Shown here piece after piece: positions 6,461-14,377 of a DNA stretch of 39,702 nt (the stretch's first letter is position 1; every line of letters starts with the position of its first letter). The notes under the pieces are model-generated. The model had not been told where the DNA came from. It did no database searches and saw only the letters and a list, made by a program, of their open reading frames with translations. The translations under genes were made by a program, and so were the position numbers. The stretch covers positions 1 to 39,702 of the forward strand of contig JAJYGA010000164.1 of NCBI GenBank assembly GCA_021785255.1, written 5' to 3'. Source of the DNA: Actinomycetes bacterium. GTDB lineage: Bacteria; Actinomycetota; Acidimicrobiia; Acidimicrobiales; Acidimicrobiaceae.

Positions 6461-7486
6461 CTAGCAGATCCGGGGAAGAGGGTCTCCCGTAAGCATATCA
6501 AGTGTGCGATGTGCACCAAATTGTGTTCTACAGACGACCACAGGAAGATCAGTCTCTCTAATCTCACCAATCAGGGCTGCCTCTTTCCCAAGGTGATGTT
6601 CACGCAAAAGATCCAATGCAGCATCGGCAATCCGCGGGTCAACGACTACCACGACCTTGCCTTCGTTAGCGATATGGAAAGGATCCAGACCCAAAATCTC
6701 GCACGCACCCCTGACTGGATCCGACAGCGGAACCCGAGCTTCATCAATCACTATCTCGGTTCGAGTATCTAATGCCAGCTCGTTTAGGGTACTTGCCAGC
6801 CCTCCTCTAGTAGGATCCCGCATCCATCTCACTTTGTCACCAAACTCGGTCAAAAGGGCTTCGACAAGCGGCCAAAGATTTGCAGTGTCAGAGGACAACC
6901 AATCAGAGGAAAACTCAAGATCTCCCCTGGCCATTAATATGGTAACTCCGTGGTCCCCCAGAGACCCTGACAACAATACACTATCGCCGGGTCTGACACG
7001 CCCGCTGGAAAGAGCAGCTCTTGGATGTCTGACACCCAGACCAGTTGTCGTTACGTAGATTCCATCTCCTGCACCGTGCTCTACCACCTTGGTGTCACCT
7101 GCAACGACCTTCGCTCCAGCCGCCTCAGCAGTTGAGGCAATCTTTTCCAGTTGAAGCTGCAGTTCATCTACAGATGTTCCAGCCTCGATGATCATTGCTA
7201 ACGTTAGCAGCAAAGGACGTGCGCCCGCAACCGAGAGATCGTTCAGGGTTCCGTTCACTGCCAACTCACCTAACGTCCCTCCAGGAAAAACGCTTGGACT
7301 GACTACAAAAGAATCAGTAGTTATGTACATCTGCGAGTCGGGAATAGCAAAAGAATCCTCTAGCGTGGGTGCACTTCCGTAGTTAGAAAGAATAGGAGCA
7401 ATAAGCCCGTCCATTAACTTTCTAGACGCTTTTCCCCCAGCTCCATGGGCCATTAAAATCTCTTTGTCAGAGAACCAAACGTCCAC
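6461..7486 (-). CDS. hypE: Hydrogenase maturation protein HypE (carbamoyl dehydratase)
   Basis: 341 residues of the PurM/AIR-synthase-like family. HypE receives a carbamoyl group from HypF on its C-terminal Cys and dehydrates it with ATP to a thiocyanate, the CN- source for the [NiFe] site. AHGAGGK near the N-terminus and AGDTKVVEHGAGDG are typical nucleotide-binding elements. The protein ends in PRIC, so the essential terminal Cys341 is present. The start is GTG at 7486, immediately after the TAG of hypD with no gap, so the two genes form an operon. The remaining maturation genes are elsewhere in the same island. Confidence 0.96.
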   Translation of the reverse strand: MDVWFSDKEILMAHGAGGKASRKLMDGLIAPILSNYGSAPTLEDSFAIPDSQMYITTDSFVVSPSVFPGGTLGELAVNGTLNDLSVAGARPLLLTLAMIIEAGTSVDELQLQLEKIASTAEAAGAKVVAGDTKVVEHGAGDGIYVTTTGLGVRHPRAALSSGRVRPGDSVLLSGSLGDHGVTILMARGDLEFSSDWLSSDTANLWPLVEALLTEFGDKVRWMRDPTRGGLASTLNELALDTRTEIVIDEARVPLSDPVRGACEILGLDPFHIANEGKVVVVVDPRIADAALDLLREHHLGKEAALIGEIRETDLPVVVCRTQFGAHRTLDMLTGDPLPRIC

Positions 7487-8608
7487 CTAACTGACTCCAC
7501 TTCCTGATCGTGTAGAACGTCTGTGAACATAGGTATAGTAGGCGCTGCAGGCTCCTTCTGAAGACACCATCAAGGCCCCTACTGGGTACTCTGGAGAACA
7601 GGTAACTCCCAACAACGGGCAGTCTTCCGGTTTCTTTTTCCCTACAAGAACCTCCCCACAGATAGCTCCTTCAGGGTCAGGAGAACATATCTGCTTCACT
7701 TTATAGCGCACTTCAGCGTCGTATCGGATGTAGGTATCTTTAATGCGAAGTGCTGAGGAATCGATGTAACCAAGTCCTCTCCATTCGAAGCTGGGACGTT
7801 CTTCAAACACCTCGTCCATGGCTGCCAAAGCCGCTAGGTTACCTTCGCTCTTTACTGCCCTAACGTATTGGTTCTCAACAGAAGCGGCGCCAGCATTAAT
7901 TAGGCGTACTAACCACAAGATAGACTCCAAAATATCCGTGGGTTCAAAACCAGAGACTACGATGGGACGAGAAAACTCCTCCGCTACAAAGCGATATGGG
8001 TCAAGGCCTATAACGGTAGATACGTGTCCGGGGCCGACAAATCCGTCAAGATCAAAAAATTCGCTCTCTAAGATGGAACGAAGGGGTGGACCCACGGTCA
8101 CGTGGTTGCAAAACACCGAAAAGTTTGAGACTCCCAGGTCGTGAGCTTGTTTTATAGTAAGCGCTGTAGATGGCGCAGTAGTTTCAAATCCGATCGCGAA
8201 GAATACAACGTCCTTGTCTGGGTGCTCAAGAGCAATCTTGAGAGCATCTGTCGGAGAATAGACCATTCGGATATCGGCACCTTTGGCTTTCACTTCAAAT
8301 GGACTCTGCTTGGATCCGGGAACCCGCATCACGTCTCCAAAGGCAGTAAATATCACGTCGTTAGACTGCACAAGCTCCAACGCTTCGTCCACCTTGCCTA
8401 AAGGAAGAACACATACCGGACATCCAGGACCATGAATAAGCTCTATGTTCTGGGGTAGGAGTTCATGGATTCCAAATCTGTAGATACTGTGGGTATGACC
8501 GCCACAGATCTCCATAAGACGGTAACTTCGATCGGCAACCTCTTGTTTTATTTGACGGCTCAGCTTCAGAATCAACTCCGGATTGCGGTACTCGTCGATA
8601 AAGCGCAT
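7487..8608 (-). CDS. hypD: Hydrogenase maturation protein HypD
   Basis: 373 residues. HypD is the [4Fe-4S] scaffold that, with HypC, assembles Fe(CN)2CO. MRFIDEYRNPELI is the usual N-terminus. MEICGGHTH holds a catalytic Cys, and HGPGCPVCVLP a CxxC pair. The C-terminal cluster region runs from CSPDPEGAICGEVL through PEDCPLLGVTCSPEYPVGA. The frame is open further upstream (to 8707), but GAGGAGGGG lies five bases before the ATG at 8608 and family alignment starts there, so I choose 8608. hypE follows directly. The AraC regulator is transcribed divergently. Confidence 0.96.
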   Translation of the reverse strand: MRFIDEYRNPELILKLSRQIKQEVADRSYRLMEICGGHTHSIYRFGIHELLPQNIELIHGPGCPVCVLPLGKVDEALELVQSNDVIFTAFGDVMRVPGSKQSPFEVKAKGADIRMVYSPTDALKIALEHPDKDVVFFAIGFETTAPSTALTIKQAHDLGVSNFSVFCNHVTVGPPLRSILESEFFDLDGFVGPGHVSTVIGLDPYRFVAEEFSRPIVVSGFEPTDILESILWLVRLINAGAASVENQYVRAVKSEGNLAALAAMDEVFEERPSFEWRGLGYIDSSALRIKDTYIRYDAEVRYKVKQICSPDPEGAICGEVLVGKKKPEDCPLLGVTCSPEYPVGALMVSSEGACSAYYTYVHRRSTRSGSGVS

Positions 8609-8751
8609 CTGGACCCCTCCTCGAACTCCAAGCAAACTCAATAAGTCCAACGTCACACTATCAAAGTGCAGGAATATCGCAAGAGATGCCATAGCCCCAA
8701 TACGCAAGCTACATCCGATTTCCGAAGTATATCCAAAGTATCTAGTCCGAC

Positions 8752-9834
8752 ATGCGAAATATTGATACTATTGCGAACATGGCGATTACACGCGTCCGAA
8801 TGATAGATACAACCCGGACCGAAAACCCGGTCCCAGCTCGAGGACGCAGCCGGGGCATTCCCCCAGCTCTGGAACGCTATGAGGTTAAAAAGACCCGAAT
8901 AATTCACGAAGCTGTACAGGTGATTAGCCAGCTCTTCGGAGAACACTCTATTTTAGTCGGCGGGCAAGACGCGGCCAACTTCGGCCTCACCTATCATGCC
9001 GCCACGCTCAAAGAGATAAGTTTTGGCTACTTCGACTATCGAGTTCGGGTCGAGTTGCGAAACTTGAAGGTAGATAGCTACTACCTTTTCATGCCAACTA
9101 GCGGCTCAGGTACCTTCCAACTAAAAAACTGTGAACTTAGGACCTCAACCATAGGTGCATTCATCGCCAACCCAGGGACTCACTTCGACCTGAAACTTGA
9201 ACCTGACTCACCTCATCTTTTTCTAAGAATCTCGCCAAAACTAGTTGAACATCAAATATCAAGAGCACTAGCACGCACGCCTACCGACCCGGTGCAGTTT
9301 GATTGTTCCTTCGACCTCTCCAACGCCTACTCTTGGAGATGGCATACAGCGGTTCAGCTACTTCATGAAGAGCTATATGCCCAAGATAGCCTGAGCCACA
9401 ATCCGCTGCGCATAAGTGCATTGGAGGAGTATTTAGTTGCCACCTTGCTTCTGCTTCAAAGTTCAAACTACTCCACTTGTCTTCAACCAGTTGGAATTGA
9501 ACGAAGCAGTCGCACTTTACGCTTGGCAATAAAGTACATGCAAGAAAACCTGGACCAGGACATAACACTCGAAGAGATCGCCAGCAACATTGGAATCAGT
9601 CCACGAAGTATTCAAAAGGCATTCAGAGAGGAACTGCACTCCTCTCCTATGACCTATCTACGTGACCTGAGACTCGATCGAATACAACTTGAGATTCTCT
9701 CAAGTCCAGACAAAATGATAAAGATCGGAACCGTGGCTCGCAAGTGGGGCATGAACCATTACGGGAGATTTGCCAAAGCATATAAGGATCGCTACGGCGA
9801 ATCACCTTCTGAAACTCTGGACGGACTCGGATAG
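8752..9834 (+). CDS. AraC-family transcriptional regulator
   Basis: 360 residues. The C-terminal ~100 residues form the double helix-turn-helix of AraC/XylS (NLDQDITLEEIASNIGISPRSIQKAFREE, then KIGTVARKWGMNHYGRFAKAYKDRYGESPSE, with the usual GRFxxxYKxxYGESP signature). The N-terminal part resembles the cupin-like sensor domain found in AraC-binding-like regulators. It sits between hypDE and the hydrogenase operon, which makes it the likely regulator of one or both. Several ATG/GTG starts are possible (8752, 8779, 8803). None has a strong ribosome-binding site, and the first ~40 residues look unstructured, so the true start may be later than given. Effector unknown. Confidence 0.87.
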   Translation: MRNIDTIANMAITRVRMIDTTRTENPVPARGRSRGIPPALERYEVKKTRIIHEAVQVISQLFGEHSILVGGQDAANFGLTYHAATLKEISFGYFDYRVRVELRNLKVDSYYLFMPTSGSGTFQLKNCELRTSTIGAFIANPGTHFDLKLEPDSPHLFLRISPKLVEHQISRALARTPTDPVQFDCSFDLSNAYSWRWHTAVQLLHEELYAQDSLSHNPLRISALEEYLVATLLLLQSSNYSTCLQPVGIERSSRTLRLAIKYMQENLDQDITLEEIASNIGISPRSIQKAFREELHSSPMTYLRDLRLDRIQLEILSSPDKMIKIGTVARKWGMNHYGRFAKAYKDRYGESPSETLDGLG

Positions 9835-9888
9835 AACTCTGAAAACTTAAGATAACCTTTTTAGGTTTTCAGGAACCGTATCCATCAT

Positions 9889-9953
9889 ACGCATTTCGGA
9901 TTAAGTCTCTTTATCGTAATTCGTAGATCGACTTAATATTACGTAATACGGAT
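9889..9953 (+). promoter_or_regulatory. Three direct repeats upstream of the hydrogenase operon
   Basis: Three related 13-15-base units face the same way: ACGCATTTCGGAT (9889-9901), TCGTAATTCGTAGAT (9914-9928) and ACGTAATACGGAT (9941-9953). Start-to-start spacing is 25 and 27 bases. Direct repeats spaced two to three helical turns apart are the usual binding pattern of AraC-family proteins, and an AraC gene ends 54 bases upstream. The third unit also contains the palindrome ATTACGTAAT (9938-9947). Confidence 0.45.
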
Positions 9954-10055
9954 ATCAAAACCTGGCTGGCTTTCATATGGGTCGATAATGTTGTCTATAG
10001 TCAAACCACCAACTTCAAGGTCGGAGACAATAAAGCCAACACATAAGGGGGGAAG

Positions 10056-10580
10056 ATGGCGACATACGCTGATGCGAACGTAAAACATGATGATGTCGAA
10101 CGTCTAATAGAAAAGCTTACCGACTCCACTACAGCTGAATATGCCCTTGGAATAGTCGAAAACCTCGAAGCTCTCTATATCCTGACCGTCTCCTTGAACG
10201 AGTTCTTGAAGCGAGGAGACGAGATTGTGTCATCTCTCTCCGAAGGAGTCGGCGAGTTACGTGGCGTCACCTCAGACACAATGAGTAGCTACATGGATAC
10301 ATTAAAGGAACTCTTCCAGCTCTATCGGAGCTTAGGCGACAAGAGTGCGGCGTTAGGTTCACTACTTCGCAATCAACTACTAGAGGAAAACTTTATATCG
10401 GGCGTAACTGTGATTACTAAGTCTTTAGCACAGGCACATCAAAATACGAAAGCGTTAAATACACAGACAAAAGGTATCGGATCGCTCCTTAGGAGCATCA
10501 AGGATCCCGAAGTACAGCGTGGACTAGACTTTGCCATCGAACTCCTACGGTCAATCGGGCGCAACAACGTTAGGCCATAG
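10056..10580 (+). CDS. DUF1641-like protein, candidate HucM-type hydrogenase scaffold
   Basis: 174 residues, mostly alpha-helical by composition, without cysteine clusters or a signal peptide. The ending GSLLRSIKDPEVQRGLDFAIELLRSIG matches the conserved end of DUF1641 proteins, which are often encoded beside hydrogenases and formate dehydrogenases. In M. smegmatis the gene just ahead of hucSL encodes HucM, a protein of similar size that organises the Huc hydrogenase around a membrane-associated stalk. Position at the head of this operon and size suggest the same role. That is inference, because no homology search was possible. GGGGGGAAG lies immediately before the ATG. hypA starts four bases after the stop. 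Confidence 0.7.
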   Translation: MATYADANVKHDDVERLIEKLTDSTTAEYALGIVENLEALYILTVSLNEFLKRGDEIVSSLSEGVGELRGVTSDTMSSYMDTLKELFQLYRSLGDKSAALGSLLRNQLLEENFISGVTVITKSLAQAHQNTKALNTQTKGIGSLLRSIKDPEVQRGLDFAIELLRSIGRNNVRP

Positions 10581-10584
10581 ATGC

Positions 10585-10947
10585 ATGCATGAAGCCTCTC
10601 TAGCACGAGCCATGTTGAGCACCGTAATGGACTCTTTGGATGAAAGATCTCTGCGGGGACAAGATGTCGTCTCCATAACCGTCCGCATCGGAGAGTTGGC
10701 ACAGATAGATCCCGAGTCTTTGGAGTTTGCTTTTTCATTCGCAGCCGCTGAGACGGAGTTAGAGGGGTGCAAACTCATCTTCACTACAGCTGTAGCTGAG
10801 CTGCTGTGCGTATCTTGTCAGCGACTCAATACATATGACATTGAACATCTCTACCGATGTGTCTATTGCGGTGGTCCCTGTGACCTGATAAGCGGCAAGG
10901 AGTTTGACGTTATCTCTCTTGAACTGGCAGGTAGCACAGTAACATGA
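10585..10947 (+). CDS. hypA: Hydrogenase nickel insertion protein HypA
   Basis: 120 residues. The start is fixed by the conserved MHE N-terminus (ATG at 10585), in which His2 binds nickel. The zinc site is C75-x2-C78 and C92-x2-C95 (CVSC ... CVYC). HypA accepts nickel and, with HypB, delivers it to the hydrogenase large subunit. The frame is open upstream to 10531, but those 18 residues overlap the preceding gene and do not belong to the family. hypB overlaps its stop by four bases (ATGA). Confidence 0.95.
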   Translation: MHEASLARAMLSTVMDSLDERSLRGQDVVSITVRIGELAQIDPESLEFAFSFAAAETELEGCKLIFTTAVAELLCVSCQRLNTYDIEHLYRCVYCGGPCDLISGKEFDVISLELAGSTVT

Positions 10948-11615
10948 GTATTTCAGTCAATCTTGAGGCTCAGATTCTAGATAAGGCAAACTCCGAGGCC
11001 CAGATACTCAAAAACGCCTTTGCGAGCGTAGGCACGCTGGTTATAAACGTCATGTCTTCTCCTGGAAGCGGCAAAACAGAGTTGATCTCAGTCTTGTCAG
11101 ACGAACTTCGCGCCCAAGGCAGCAAAGTAGCGGTGCTCGTGGGGGACTGCGCGACCGATCATGACGCGAAACGTCTTTCACCACATGTCGACTGGGTCGA
11201 ACAGATACAAACCAAAGGAGTATGTCACCTAGAAGCTCGCATGTTCACGCCTTATCTGGACGACCTCTTGCAACTAGCACCACAGTTTCTATTCATTGAA
11301 AACGTCGGGAATCTCGTATGCCCAGTCGACTTCGACCTTGGAGAGTCGATCAGAGTCTCACTTTTGTCAACGACAGAGGGAGAGGACAAGCCAGCTAAAT
11401 ATCCCGATCTGTTTCGGACATGCCACATAACCGTCATCTCCAAGGCAGACCTCATTGAAGCGGTCGAATTCTCAGAACACGAGGCAAGACACTACATAGA
11501 GTTAGTGTCACCAAAGACTAACACGATAAAGGTCTCTGCCCGCACGAAAGAAGGCATAGAAGAGCTGGCTCAGGCAATCAGAGCCATTACTGCACAGACC
11601 AAGGAGGGATCGTAA
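10944..11615 (+). CDS. hypB: Hydrogenase nickel GTPase HypB
   Basis: 223 residues of the SIMIBI GTPase class. P-loop SSPGSGKTE (38-46), the switch region GDCATDHDAKR, the metal-site GVCHLEA (Cys-His) and ENVGNLVCP, and the base-recognition SKAD are all present. It lacks the N-terminal CxxCGC motif and the poly-His tract found in some HypB proteins, so it is a minimal type with only the G-domain metal site. GTP hydrolysis drives nickel transfer from HypA. It overlaps hypA by four bases. A 160-base gap with a stem-loop separates it from the small subunit gene. Confidence 0.95.
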   Translation: MSISVNLEAQILDKANSEAQILKNAFASVGTLVINVMSSPGSGKTELISVLSDELRAQGSKVAVLVGDCATDHDAKRLSPHVDWVEQIQTKGVCHLEARMFTPYLDDLLQLAPQFLFIENVGNLVCPVDFDLGESIRVSLLSTTEGEDKPAKYPDLFRTCHITVISKADLIEAVEFSEHEARHYIELVSPKTNTIKVSARTKEGIEELAQAIRAITAQTKEGS

Positions 11616-11775: not shown

Positions 11776-12747
11776 GTGGCATCAGTTCTATGGCTTCAAG
11801 GGGGAGCCTGCTCTGGCAACACAATGTCGTTCTTGAACGCCGAAGAGCCAAGTGTGGTGGATCTAATAGTCGACTTCGGTTTGGATCTTCTTTGGCACCC
11901 ATCACTTGGTGTTGAACTTGGCGCCAATGCCCAGAAGATCTTCTGGGATTGCGCAAAAGGAGATATGCCTCTTGACATCTTTGTGTTTGAAGGAACGGTC
12001 ATGGAGGGTCCAGAGGGCTCTGGTCGCTTTGACGTGTTTGCGGATCGACCGATGAAAGATTGGGTCAACGATCTAGCCGCGCAAGCTGGCGTCGTCGTGG
12101 CCATTGGAGACTGTGCCTGTTGGGGTGGTATACCTGCTACCGAGCCCAACCCCACCGCGTCGACAGGCCTGCAGTTCCACAAACGATCCAAAGGCGGCTT
12201 CTTGGGGGTTAATTTCAGATCAAAGATGGGACTCCCCGTGATAAACATTCCCGGATGTCCTGCACATCCCGACTGGATTACCCAGATCATCGTCGCTTTA
12301 GCCTCTGGTCGAGCCGGAGACATTACTTTAGACGAGCTTCATCGGCCGCAAACCTTTTTCAAGAGTTTTACGCAGACGGGCTGTACCAGAGTACAGTTCT
12401 TCGAGTACAAGCAGTCAACTACCAACTTTGGCGAGGGTACGCGAACGGGTTGTCTCTTTTACGAATTCGGTTGCAGGGGTCCGATGACCCACTCACCTTG
12501 TAACCGAATCCTGTGGAACCGTCAATCATCCAAGACGCGCGCGGGAATGCCGTGCACAGGGTGCACCGAGCCCGAGTTTCCTTTCTTTGACCTGGCACCT
12601 GGAACGGTGTTTAAGACTCAAAAAGTCTCAGGAGTGGTTCCTAAAGAGGTCCCCGAAGGAAGCGACCACCTTACATACATGGCTCATGCTTTAGCGGCAC
12701 GAGTTGCATCACCACAATGGTCCAAAGAAGATATGTTCGTCGTTTAG
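11776..12747 (+). CDS. hucS: [NiFe]-hydrogenase small subunit, group 2a (HucS/HupS type)
   Basis: 323 residues, no Tat signal, so cytoplasmic-side. The N-terminus LWLQGGACSGNTMSFLNAEEP, then GDCACWGGIPA, INIPGCPAHPDW, FTQTGCTR, GCRGPMTHSPCNRILWNRQ and GMPCTGCTEPEFPFFDLAPGT match cyanobacterial HupS and mycobacterial HucS. Proximal cluster ligands are Cys12, Cys113 and Cys161. The second Cys of the usual CxxC is Asn15, as is normal for group 2a. In M. smegmatis Huc all three relay clusters are [3Fe-4S]. The other cysteines are 203, 226, 233, 242, 260 and 263. It carries electrons from the active site to a quinone or partner. The start follows GAAAGGAG. The large subunit gene is 22 bases downstream. 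Confidence 0.96.
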   Translation: MASVLWLQGGACSGNTMSFLNAEEPSVVDLIVDFGLDLLWHPSLGVELGANAQKIFWDCAKGDMPLDIFVFEGTVMEGPEGSGRFDVFADRPMKDWVNDLAAQAGVVVAIGDCACWGGIPATEPNPTASTGLQFHKRSKGGFLGVNFRSKMGLPVINIPGCPAHPDWITQIIVALASGRAGDITLDELHRPQTFFKSFTQTGCTRVQFFEYKQSTTNFGEGTRTGCLFYEFGCRGPMTHSPCNRILWNRQSSKTRAGMPCTGCTEPEFPFFDLAPGTVFKTQKVSGVVPKEVPEGSDHLTYMAHALAARVASPQWSKEDMFVV

Positions 12748-12769
12748 AAGTTGCAAGGAGAAAACACTA

Positions 12770-14377
12770 ATGAGTACAGTTGACTTACGTGTGAGTCCAC
12801 TTGGTAGAGTCGAAGGAGATCTCGACGTCAGAGTAACGATCAAAGACGGGGTTGTAAGTTCCGCCTGGACTGAAGCAGCGATGTTTCGAGGTTTTGAGAT
12901 CATCTTAAAGGGGAAAGACCCACAAGCAGGTCTAATAGTGACGCCAAGGATCTGTGGCATCTGTGGGGGTAGCCACCTCTACAAAGCAGCCTACGCTCTC
13001 GATACAGCGTGGAAAACAAAGATGCCCAAGAATGCGACGTTGATACGCAACATCGCGCAGGCCTGCGAAACCTTACAAAGTATCCCCCGCTATTTCTATG
13101 CTCTCTTCGCTATAGACCTGACCAATAAGAACTACGCTTCATCTCCCCTTTATGAAGAAGCGTTAAGGCGATTCGCACCATACAGCGGTGCCAGTTATCA
13201 AAAAGGCGTGATCGTTTCGAACAAGCCTGTGGAGATCTACGCCATCTTTGGAGGCCAGTGGCCACACTCCAGTTTCATGGTTCCCGGCGGCGTCATGTGT
13301 GCACCAACGTTGTCTGACGTCACTCGGTCAATGTCAATTCTGGAGTACTTCAGGCGAGAGTGGCTAGAAGGCACTTGGCTGGGCTGTTCAGTTGAGCGTT
13401 GGTTGCAAAACAAAACCTGGGAGGACGTACTGGCCTGGGTTGAGGAGAACGAGAGCCAGTACAACAGTGACTGCGGTTTCTTCATTCGCTACTGCATGGA
13501 CGTAGGTCTTGACAAGTACGGCCAAGGCTCCGGTAACTATTTGGCCGTCGGAACATATTTTGATCCCGAGTTGTACAAAACACCAACGATAGAAGGTCGC
13601 AATGCCGCCCTGATCGGTAGATCCGGTGTCTATGCAAACGGTCAGTTCTCAGAGTTCGATCAAGCTCGAGTTACAGAAGACGTCTCACACTCCTTCTATG
13701 AAGGTAACAGGCCGCTTCATCCCTTCGAAGGCGAGACTATACCCATGGACCCCGAACGGGGTCGGAAGATGGACAAGTACTCCTGGGCTAAGTCCCCCAG
13801 ATATGACGTCGAAGGAGTCGGACACATCCCCTTAGAGGCAGGGCCTCTGGCAAGACGAATGGCTGCGGCAGCTCCAAATGCCGCGGCTCATCAGGACAAT
13901 GATCCTTTGTTCCTTGACATCTTGAACAAGATAGGACCCTCAGTGATGGTCCGTCAGTTAGCGAGAATGCACGAGGGGCCGAAGTACTTCACCTGGGTCA
14001 AAGAATGGCTCTCCCAGATCGACCTTCACGAAAGTTTCTACAACAAGCCCGAAGAGCTGACAGAAGGGAAGGGATTCGGCGGCACTGAAGCAGCACGCGG
14101 ATCTCTTTGCGATTGGATCGTCATAGATGATGGAAAGATTGCCAACTATCAAGTGGTAACCCCAACCGCCTGGAACATCGGTCCACGAGACAGCGCCGGA
14201 ACTCTCGGACCTATCGAACAGGCTCTCGTCGGAGCGCCAATCAAAGACGTCGAGGATCCCGTAGAACTGGGACATGTGGCTAGGAGTTTCGACTCCTGCT
14301 TAGTTTGCACCGTACATGCATACGACGAACGAACTGGTAAGGAACTGTCGAGATTTCTCGTGAACGGAATGGTATAG
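12770..14377 (+). CDS. hucL: [NiFe]-hydrogenase large subunit, group 2a (HucL/HupL type)
   Basis: 535 residues with the Ni-Fe active site. The N-terminal motif RICGIC (Cys62, Cys65) and the C-terminal DSCLVCTVH (Cys510, Cys513) supply the four ligands; Glu15 in GRVEGD is the conserved acidic residue. A 19-residue tail follows His516, the expected cleavage site of the maturation endopeptidase encoded next. IPRYFYALFAIDLTNK, GGQWPHSSFMVPGGVMCAPTL and TAWNIGPRD are group 2a hallmarks. The start ATG at 12770 has AAGGAG nine bases upstream; the open frame back to 12704 overlaps the small subunit and is not used. Group 2a enzymes oxidise H2, in mycobacteria down to atmospheric levels. Confidence 0.97.
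   Translation: MSTVDLRVSPLGRVEGDLDVRVTIKDGVVSSAWTEAAMFRGFEIILKGKDPQAGLIVTPRICGICGGSHLYKAAYALDTAWKTKMPKNATLIRNIAQACETLQSIPRYFYALFAIDLTNKNYASSPLYEEALRRFAPYSGASYQKGVIVSNKPVEIYAIFGGQWPHSSFMVPGGVMCAPTLSDVTRSMSILEYFRREWLEGTWLGCSVERWLQNKTWEDVLAWVEENESQYNSDCGFFIRYCMDVGLDKYGQGSGNYLAVGTYFDPELYKTPTIEGRNAALIGRSGVYANGQFSEFDQARVTEDVSHSFYEGNRPLHPFEGETIPMDPERGRKMDKYSWAKSPRYDVEGVGHIPLEAGPLARRMAAAAPNAAAHQDNDPLFLDILNKIGPSVMVRQLARMHEGPKYFTWVKEWLSQIDLHESFYNKPEELTEGKGFGGTEAARGSLCDWIVIDDGKIANYQVVTPTAWNIGPRDSAGTLGPIEQALVGAPIKDVEDPVELGHVARSFDSCLVCTVHAYDERTGKELSRFLVNGMV

Follow-up and report, generated by a model that had tools for sequence, protein, structure and literature searches.

The window, which is the whole stretch of 39,702 nucleotides that was analysed, carries a regulator gene of the AraC/XylS type between two groups of hydrogenase genes. 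The regulator gene is flanked by hypD-hypE on the minus strand at one side and by the huc operon on the plus strand at the other. The gene order on the plus strand is hucM-hypA-hypB-hucS-hucL-protease-TPR-Rieske/NifU-NHL. The genes that bear on the analysis are as follows.

6461..8608, minus strand, hypD and hypE, a divergent operon facing the repeat array called array 2 below (PF01924 for hypD, AIRS domains for hypE)
8779..9834, plus strand, AraC/XylS-type regulator gene (PF14525 and HTH_18)
10056..10580, plus strand, hucM (DUF1641, PF07849), the first gene of the huc operon
10585..11615, plus strand, hypA and hypB (sequence, HypB domain and gene order by tblastn)
11776..14377, plus strand, hucS and hucL, group 2a [NiFe]-hydrogenase

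Huc is among the enzymes by which soil bacteria take H2 from the air, and its structure is known. The hydrogenase was assigned to group 2a by the homology of hucS, hucL and hucM to the M. smegmatis enzyme of known structure. The HucS match to M. smegmatis Huc (7uur) has an E value of 4e-202, and HucM matches the Huc membrane-associated subunit (PDB 7uus_Q) with an E value of 2e-9. HucL is 80.7% identical to its counterpart in G522, a genome with a HucS identical to the solved chain. The open reading frame of hypD opens at 8707, and its likely start is the ATG at 8608 behind a GGAGGGG ribosome site.

The regulator combines an N-terminal AraC_binding_2 domain (PF14525, E 1e-21) with a C-terminal domain of two helix-turn-helix motifs (HTH_18, E 8e-17). 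Its structure model shows a strand barrel followed by the HTH helices, with a pLDDT of 86. When this model was searched with Foldseek, general AraC-family likeness alone was returned (CuxR, ToxT, Rns), and no ligand clue came from these matches. In the N-terminal part of the protein (window 8839-8874), an R-x-R-S-R-G-I-P-P-A-L-E stretch precedes the cupin-like domain. Within the family the huc-linked AraC proteins conserve this stretch, and it is partly kept beyond the family.

Three direct repeats had been named in the original prediction between the regulator gene and the huc operon, on one strand and with spacings of 25 and 27 bp. All three are present as described, namely ACGCATTTCG (9889), TCGTAATTCG (9914) and ACGTAATACG (9941). 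The motif WCGYAWTWCG has three matches in the 39.7-kb window, all within 9889-9950 and facing the huc operon; no other match was found in the window when both strands were searched. Clusters of three such motifs within 60 bp were obtained in 0 of 1000 Markov-1 simulations.

The upstream regions of ten genomes were then placed ungapped on the last half-site (d), with the d-site anchors picked by eye before matrix building. Four half-sites emerge, forming an array (TNCGNAWWTNGGAT) with offsets of 0/20/52/72 bp in the ten genomes. In the window this array, named array 1, lies at 9868-9954 and faces hucM-hypAB-hucSL. The half-sites below were scored with a matrix from other genera, and their ranks are out of 79,370.

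9868..9882, plus strand, half-site a (TTCAGGAACCGTATC), 6.8 bits, rank 55 of 79,370, the weakest of the four
9888..9902, plus strand, half-site b (TACGCATTTCGGATT), unit 1 of the original prediction, 13.6 bits, rank 3 of 79,370
9913..9927, plus strand, unit 2 of the original prediction (ATCGTAATTCGTAGA), half-site-like, out of register and not conserved
9920..9934, plus strand, half-site c (TTCGTAGATCGACTT), the conserved middle site, 7.4 bits
9940..9954, plus strand, half-site d (TACGTAATACGGATA), unit 3 of the original prediction, 15.0 bits, rank 2 of 79,370

As operator units, the first and third repeats stand and the middle one at 9914 does not. The 9914 unit scores 9.9 bits in the window. 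Its counterparts at the same offset score -4.6 and -2.8 bits in the two genomes of the same genus, and the range in the other genomes, as across all nine relatives, is -18.6 to 1.2 bits. The 25/27-bp spacing was rejected as the conserved layout on this ground. The conserved middle site is 9920-9934, with true spacings of 32 and 20 bp; it scores 6.3 and 7.8 bits in the same-genus genomes and lies 20 bp before d in 10 of 10 genomes. The fourth and weaker site, 9868-9882, is found upstream of the three named units. It keeps a fixed offset of -72 from d and is kept in both same-genus genomes, and it is the least certain of the four. The earlier observation is thus right in substance and wrong in register. 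Conservation upstream of the operons of relatives had been proposed as its check, and the repeats are conserved there in the corrected register. With a leave-one-genus-out matrix (the tested genus excluded from training), array 1 comes first among the 79,226 positions of the window. In each of the ten genomes it is first or second, and the other top match in genus g5 is array 2.

Array 2, which the original prediction missed, lies at 8778-8692 on the opposite strand, between the regulator gene and hypD, and repeats the layout of array 1.

8764..8778, minus strand, half-site a (GTTCGCAATAGTATC), at the fixed offset, overlapping the -10 box of the AraC gene
8744..8758, minus strand, half-site b (TTCGCATGTCGGACT), 9.5 bits, rank 17
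8712..8726, minus strand, half-site c (TTCGGAAATCGGATG), 13.6 bits, rank 4
8692..8706, minus strand, half-site d (TGCGTATTGGGGCTA), 12.8 bits, rank 5

Array 2 was not used in building the matrix and ranks 2 in the window with the matrix from other genera. It is also the second-best match in the three g1 genomes. Arrays 1 and 2 are identical at 53 of 93 bases without gaps, a value that no other placement in the window reaches (mean 23.4, sd 4.2, next best 46). Half-site a of array 2 alone scores -5.7 bits, so it may be conserved because of the AraC -10 box instead. When the 64 half-sites of both arrays were pooled, the consensus was TNCG-N6-GGAT, and a C and a G spaced by eight positions were each found in 63 of the 64.

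The distance from the arrays to the predicted promoters is nearly constant. Of 16 arrays, 15 have a TANNNT box 31 or 32 bp past half-site d, and in the remaining one the distance is 33 bp. The box is found at 31 bp in both window arrays and, on the hypD side, in all six copies of array 2. The predicted promoter elements are listed below.

9986..9991, plus strand, TAATGT, predicted -10 box of the huc promoter, from the TANNNT distance to half-site d
9996-10001, plus strand, TATAGT, alternative -10 box of the huc promoter
8655..8660, minus strand, TAGTGT, predicted -10 box of the hypD promoter, 31 bp beyond half-site d
8766..8771, plus strand, TACTAT, predicted -10 box of the leaderless AraC gene

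The start of the regulator gene was placed at 8779. The first ATG of the open reading frame (8752) is probably not used; G001, G002, G023 and G029 have no start codon there, the frame of G026 is shorter, and the start codons of these five relatives match 8779. The pattern TACNAT-N7-ATG also occurs in G001, G023 and G029. Since the relatives lack the 8752 start and the TACNAT box recurs 7 bp before the ATG at 8779, the regulator transcript is probably leaderless, with its -10 box under array 2.

The arrays were then followed in the family. Among the 36 family genomes searched for both HucL and AraC, nine carry HucL at an identity of at least 77%, and the same nine carry a full-length AraC. Genera g1, g5 and g4 and one g6 genome share the same gene order. 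The AraC gene is co-directional with huc in g1 and g5 and divergent from it in g4 and g6. A sequence-only profile finds exactly two arrays in the whole genome to which the window belongs (E 3e-15 and 7e-14). Across the family, the arrays found by profile search are confined to huc-bearing genomes, bar one marginal, partial hit (E 0.05). L068 and G062, whose arrays had no part in the training, each carry one beside AraC and hucM; in G062, the contig with the array is separate from the contig with the hucL fragment. In L074 (Acidimicrobiales HyVt-434), the tandem half-site pairs are 73 bp apart, not 52, again about whole helical turns.

The HucS threshold was passed by seven other genomes, from several families, among 396 of the phylum. 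In all seven, hucM or hucS adjoins an AraC homologue (28-36% identity). Full four-site arrays were not found with the window-family matrix in most other families of the phylum, where tandem pairs only were seen. The failure of relatives to keep the middle unit of the original prediction would be expected if the repeats were chance similarities or functionless relics. That reading can be set aside with near certainty. It is contradicted by the conservation in relatives and by the persistence of the arrays in other families of the phylum, and it does not account for the first rank that a matrix from other genera gives among 79,226 positions, for the second array or for the constant distance to the -10 box.

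Similarly, an AraC homologue adjoins huc in Pseudonocardia dioxanivorans CB1190 and P. asaccharolytica. In the Mycobacterium sample, whose genus label comes from matching HucS to the M. smegmatis structure, 69 of 248 genomes carry HucS. The AraC orthologue is found beside huc in 59 of these 69 and in none of the 179 Mycobacterium genomes without HucS (p ~5e-47, with shared ancestry ignored). The distances of HucS and AraC are correlated (Spearman 0.59), and none of 2000 permutations gave a value as high. In G522, the AraC gene is divergent from hucM, and the operator has one match genome-wide. The TANNNT box lies 21 or 22 bp from the half-site in 19 of 20 loci of Mycobacterium and Pseudonocardia, one helical turn closer than in the window family and as expected for contact with the -35 region. 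The mycobacterial huc promoters (L095-L108 and others) also show more conserved elements, some 20-60 bp on the upstream side of the tandem operator, namely an inverted repeat resembling GCGCGC-N3-CAGCGCGC and the stretch ATCAYGCAAG. These are perhaps the sites of a second regulator.

Ten mycobacterial genomes carry huc without the AraC orthologue. Their HucS shows 84-88% identity, and the operator is absent genome-wide in 10 of 10. The operator is present once per genome in all five huc genomes with AraC that were examined. Four of the exception loci were read (L109-L112, from G627, G654, G476 and G655); in none was hucM or AraC found upstream of hucS, and hucS lies behind a gatB-like gene in three of the four. 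This lineage may control huc differently. Because the operator and the regulator gene go missing together while huc remains, the operator probably belongs to the regulator; by the same genomes, the regulator system is not needed everywhere. Binding of the arrays by another regulator, tied to the AraC gene merely through huc, was also considered. Linkage to huc alone would unite the arrays and the AraC gene, and the additional conserved elements of the mycobacterial promoters could be read in the same way. The joint genome-wide absence of AraC and operator in ten huc genomes speaks against it, as do the position of array 2 at hypD, on the far side of the AraC gene, and a half-site form and spacing of the AraC/XylS type. 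We regard binding by another regulator as quite improbable.

The half-sites were compared with those of known regulators. Each is 15 bp long, with a box A, six intervening bases and a box B of the form GGNTA, as in the XylS/CphR type. The direct repeat is 20 bp in 16 of 16 window-family arrays and in 20 promoters of Mycobacterium and Pseudonocardia. CphR is an actinobacterial AraC-type regulator that acts at the cphA2A1 promoter in Rhodococcus and controls 4-chlorophenol oxidation (PMC6205950). Its sites are two 15-bp direct repeats of the form TGCA-N6-GGNTA, 20 bp apart and upstream of the operon; they differ in being a single pair at -35 to -69, compared with two pairs here, and no second array was reported (PMC6205950). 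The box A sequences mutated in that work were CGCG and TGCG (PMC6205950), and box A here likewise differs from TGCA in the last base. XylS has a C-terminal domain with two HTH motifs and binds at Pm two 15-bp direct repeats, each with box A and box B 6 bp apart (PMC5481539). The differences are a box A of TGCA against mostly TNCG here, benzoate effectors and one pair of repeats, and at Pm the sites of the activator and RNA polymerase overlap (PMC5481539). The XylS and CphR sites touch the -35 region, whereas the window-family array lies one helical turn further upstream, and its promoter-side half-site, 31-32 bp from the -10 box, does not reach the -35 region.

AraC-family proteins are able to activate and to repress transcription. 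This dual capacity would allow the adjacent regulator to bind the arrays and mainly repress huc and hyp, with relief on starvation. The strong repression of huc under plentiful carbon (PMC13098282) is consistent with such a role. Nevertheless, the half-sites lie upstream of the predicted -10 box in both clades, not over it, and the -35 stretch between them is not conserved, as would be expected of activator-dependent promoters. XylS and CphR, which share the geometry, are activators. A mainly repressing regulator is therefore judged unlikely.

Taken together, the half-sites are very likely the operator of an AraC/XylS-type regulator dedicated to huc, and to hypDE where hypD is divergent; this regulator is probably an activator. 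The original prediction had held that the repeats suit the adjacent AraC regulator and that the operon may have a dedicated activator. This is supported by the XylS/CphR form of the half-sites, by the restriction of the arrays to the promoters that adjoin the AraC gene, here as well as in relatives, and by the shared absence of operator and gene in ten genomes. The comparative evidence, which consists of arrays, geometry, linkage, co-occurrence and joint absence read from sequence, supports the regulator interpretation well and with a reach far wider than was first proposed.

A dimer of the regulator most likely binds each tandem pair, with its half-sites 20 bp apart. The pairs are 52 bp apart and the half-sites 20 bp, which puts all of them roughly on one face of the DNA. 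The half-site nearest to the promoter lies some 31 bp away from the -10 box. The bound regulator would recruit RNA polymerase to the hucM and hypD promoters. We infer activation of huc and hypDE because CphR and XylS, whose half-site form and 20-bp repeat recur here, are activators that bind tandem repeats as dimers. The joint output would be that the hydrogenase, the HucM scaffold and the maturation factors are made together. Array 2, which faces hypD, covers the regulator's own -10 box, and this suggests that the regulator would limit its own synthesis through it. The signal may be one of energy or carbon status.

Direct control of a [NiFe]-hydrogenase operon by an AraC-family protein has a precedent in AppY, which binds and induces hya (hydrogenase 1) in E. 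coli (PMC10057817). AppY differs in being prophage-encoded, in having many targets and in acting on an operon other than group 2a Huc (PMC10057817). In M. smegmatis, transcription of the same huc operon responds to carbon limitation and is subject to GylR-dependent repression (PMC13098282). GylR, Crp1 and Crp2 did not bind the huc promoter; a promoter pull-down gave no specific huc-binding protein, none of the four candidates tested bound, and the direct factor was left open (PMC13098282, 2026). A huc-linked AraC regulator is not mentioned in that paper, and a commentary repeats that the direct factor at the huc promoter is unidentified (PMC13289019). Both articles agree with the remark in the original prediction that group 2a hydrogenases have no well-established regulator of this class. 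Within the literature searched, no paper links a group 2a hydrogenase to a regulator of the AraC family, though such papers may exist elsewhere.

Whether the AraC/XylS-type protein is the missing direct regulator of Huc in most Actinomycetota appears evenly balanced. It would then act below carbon-status signals (GylR in M. smegmatis, for example) and couple the hydrogenase and maturation genes via arrays that flank its own gene. Such a regulator would also be of use in making Huc for fuel cells powered by air. One candidate gene and exact DNA sites for direct control of huc are named here, both in this locus and in the model organism, which makes such control testable.
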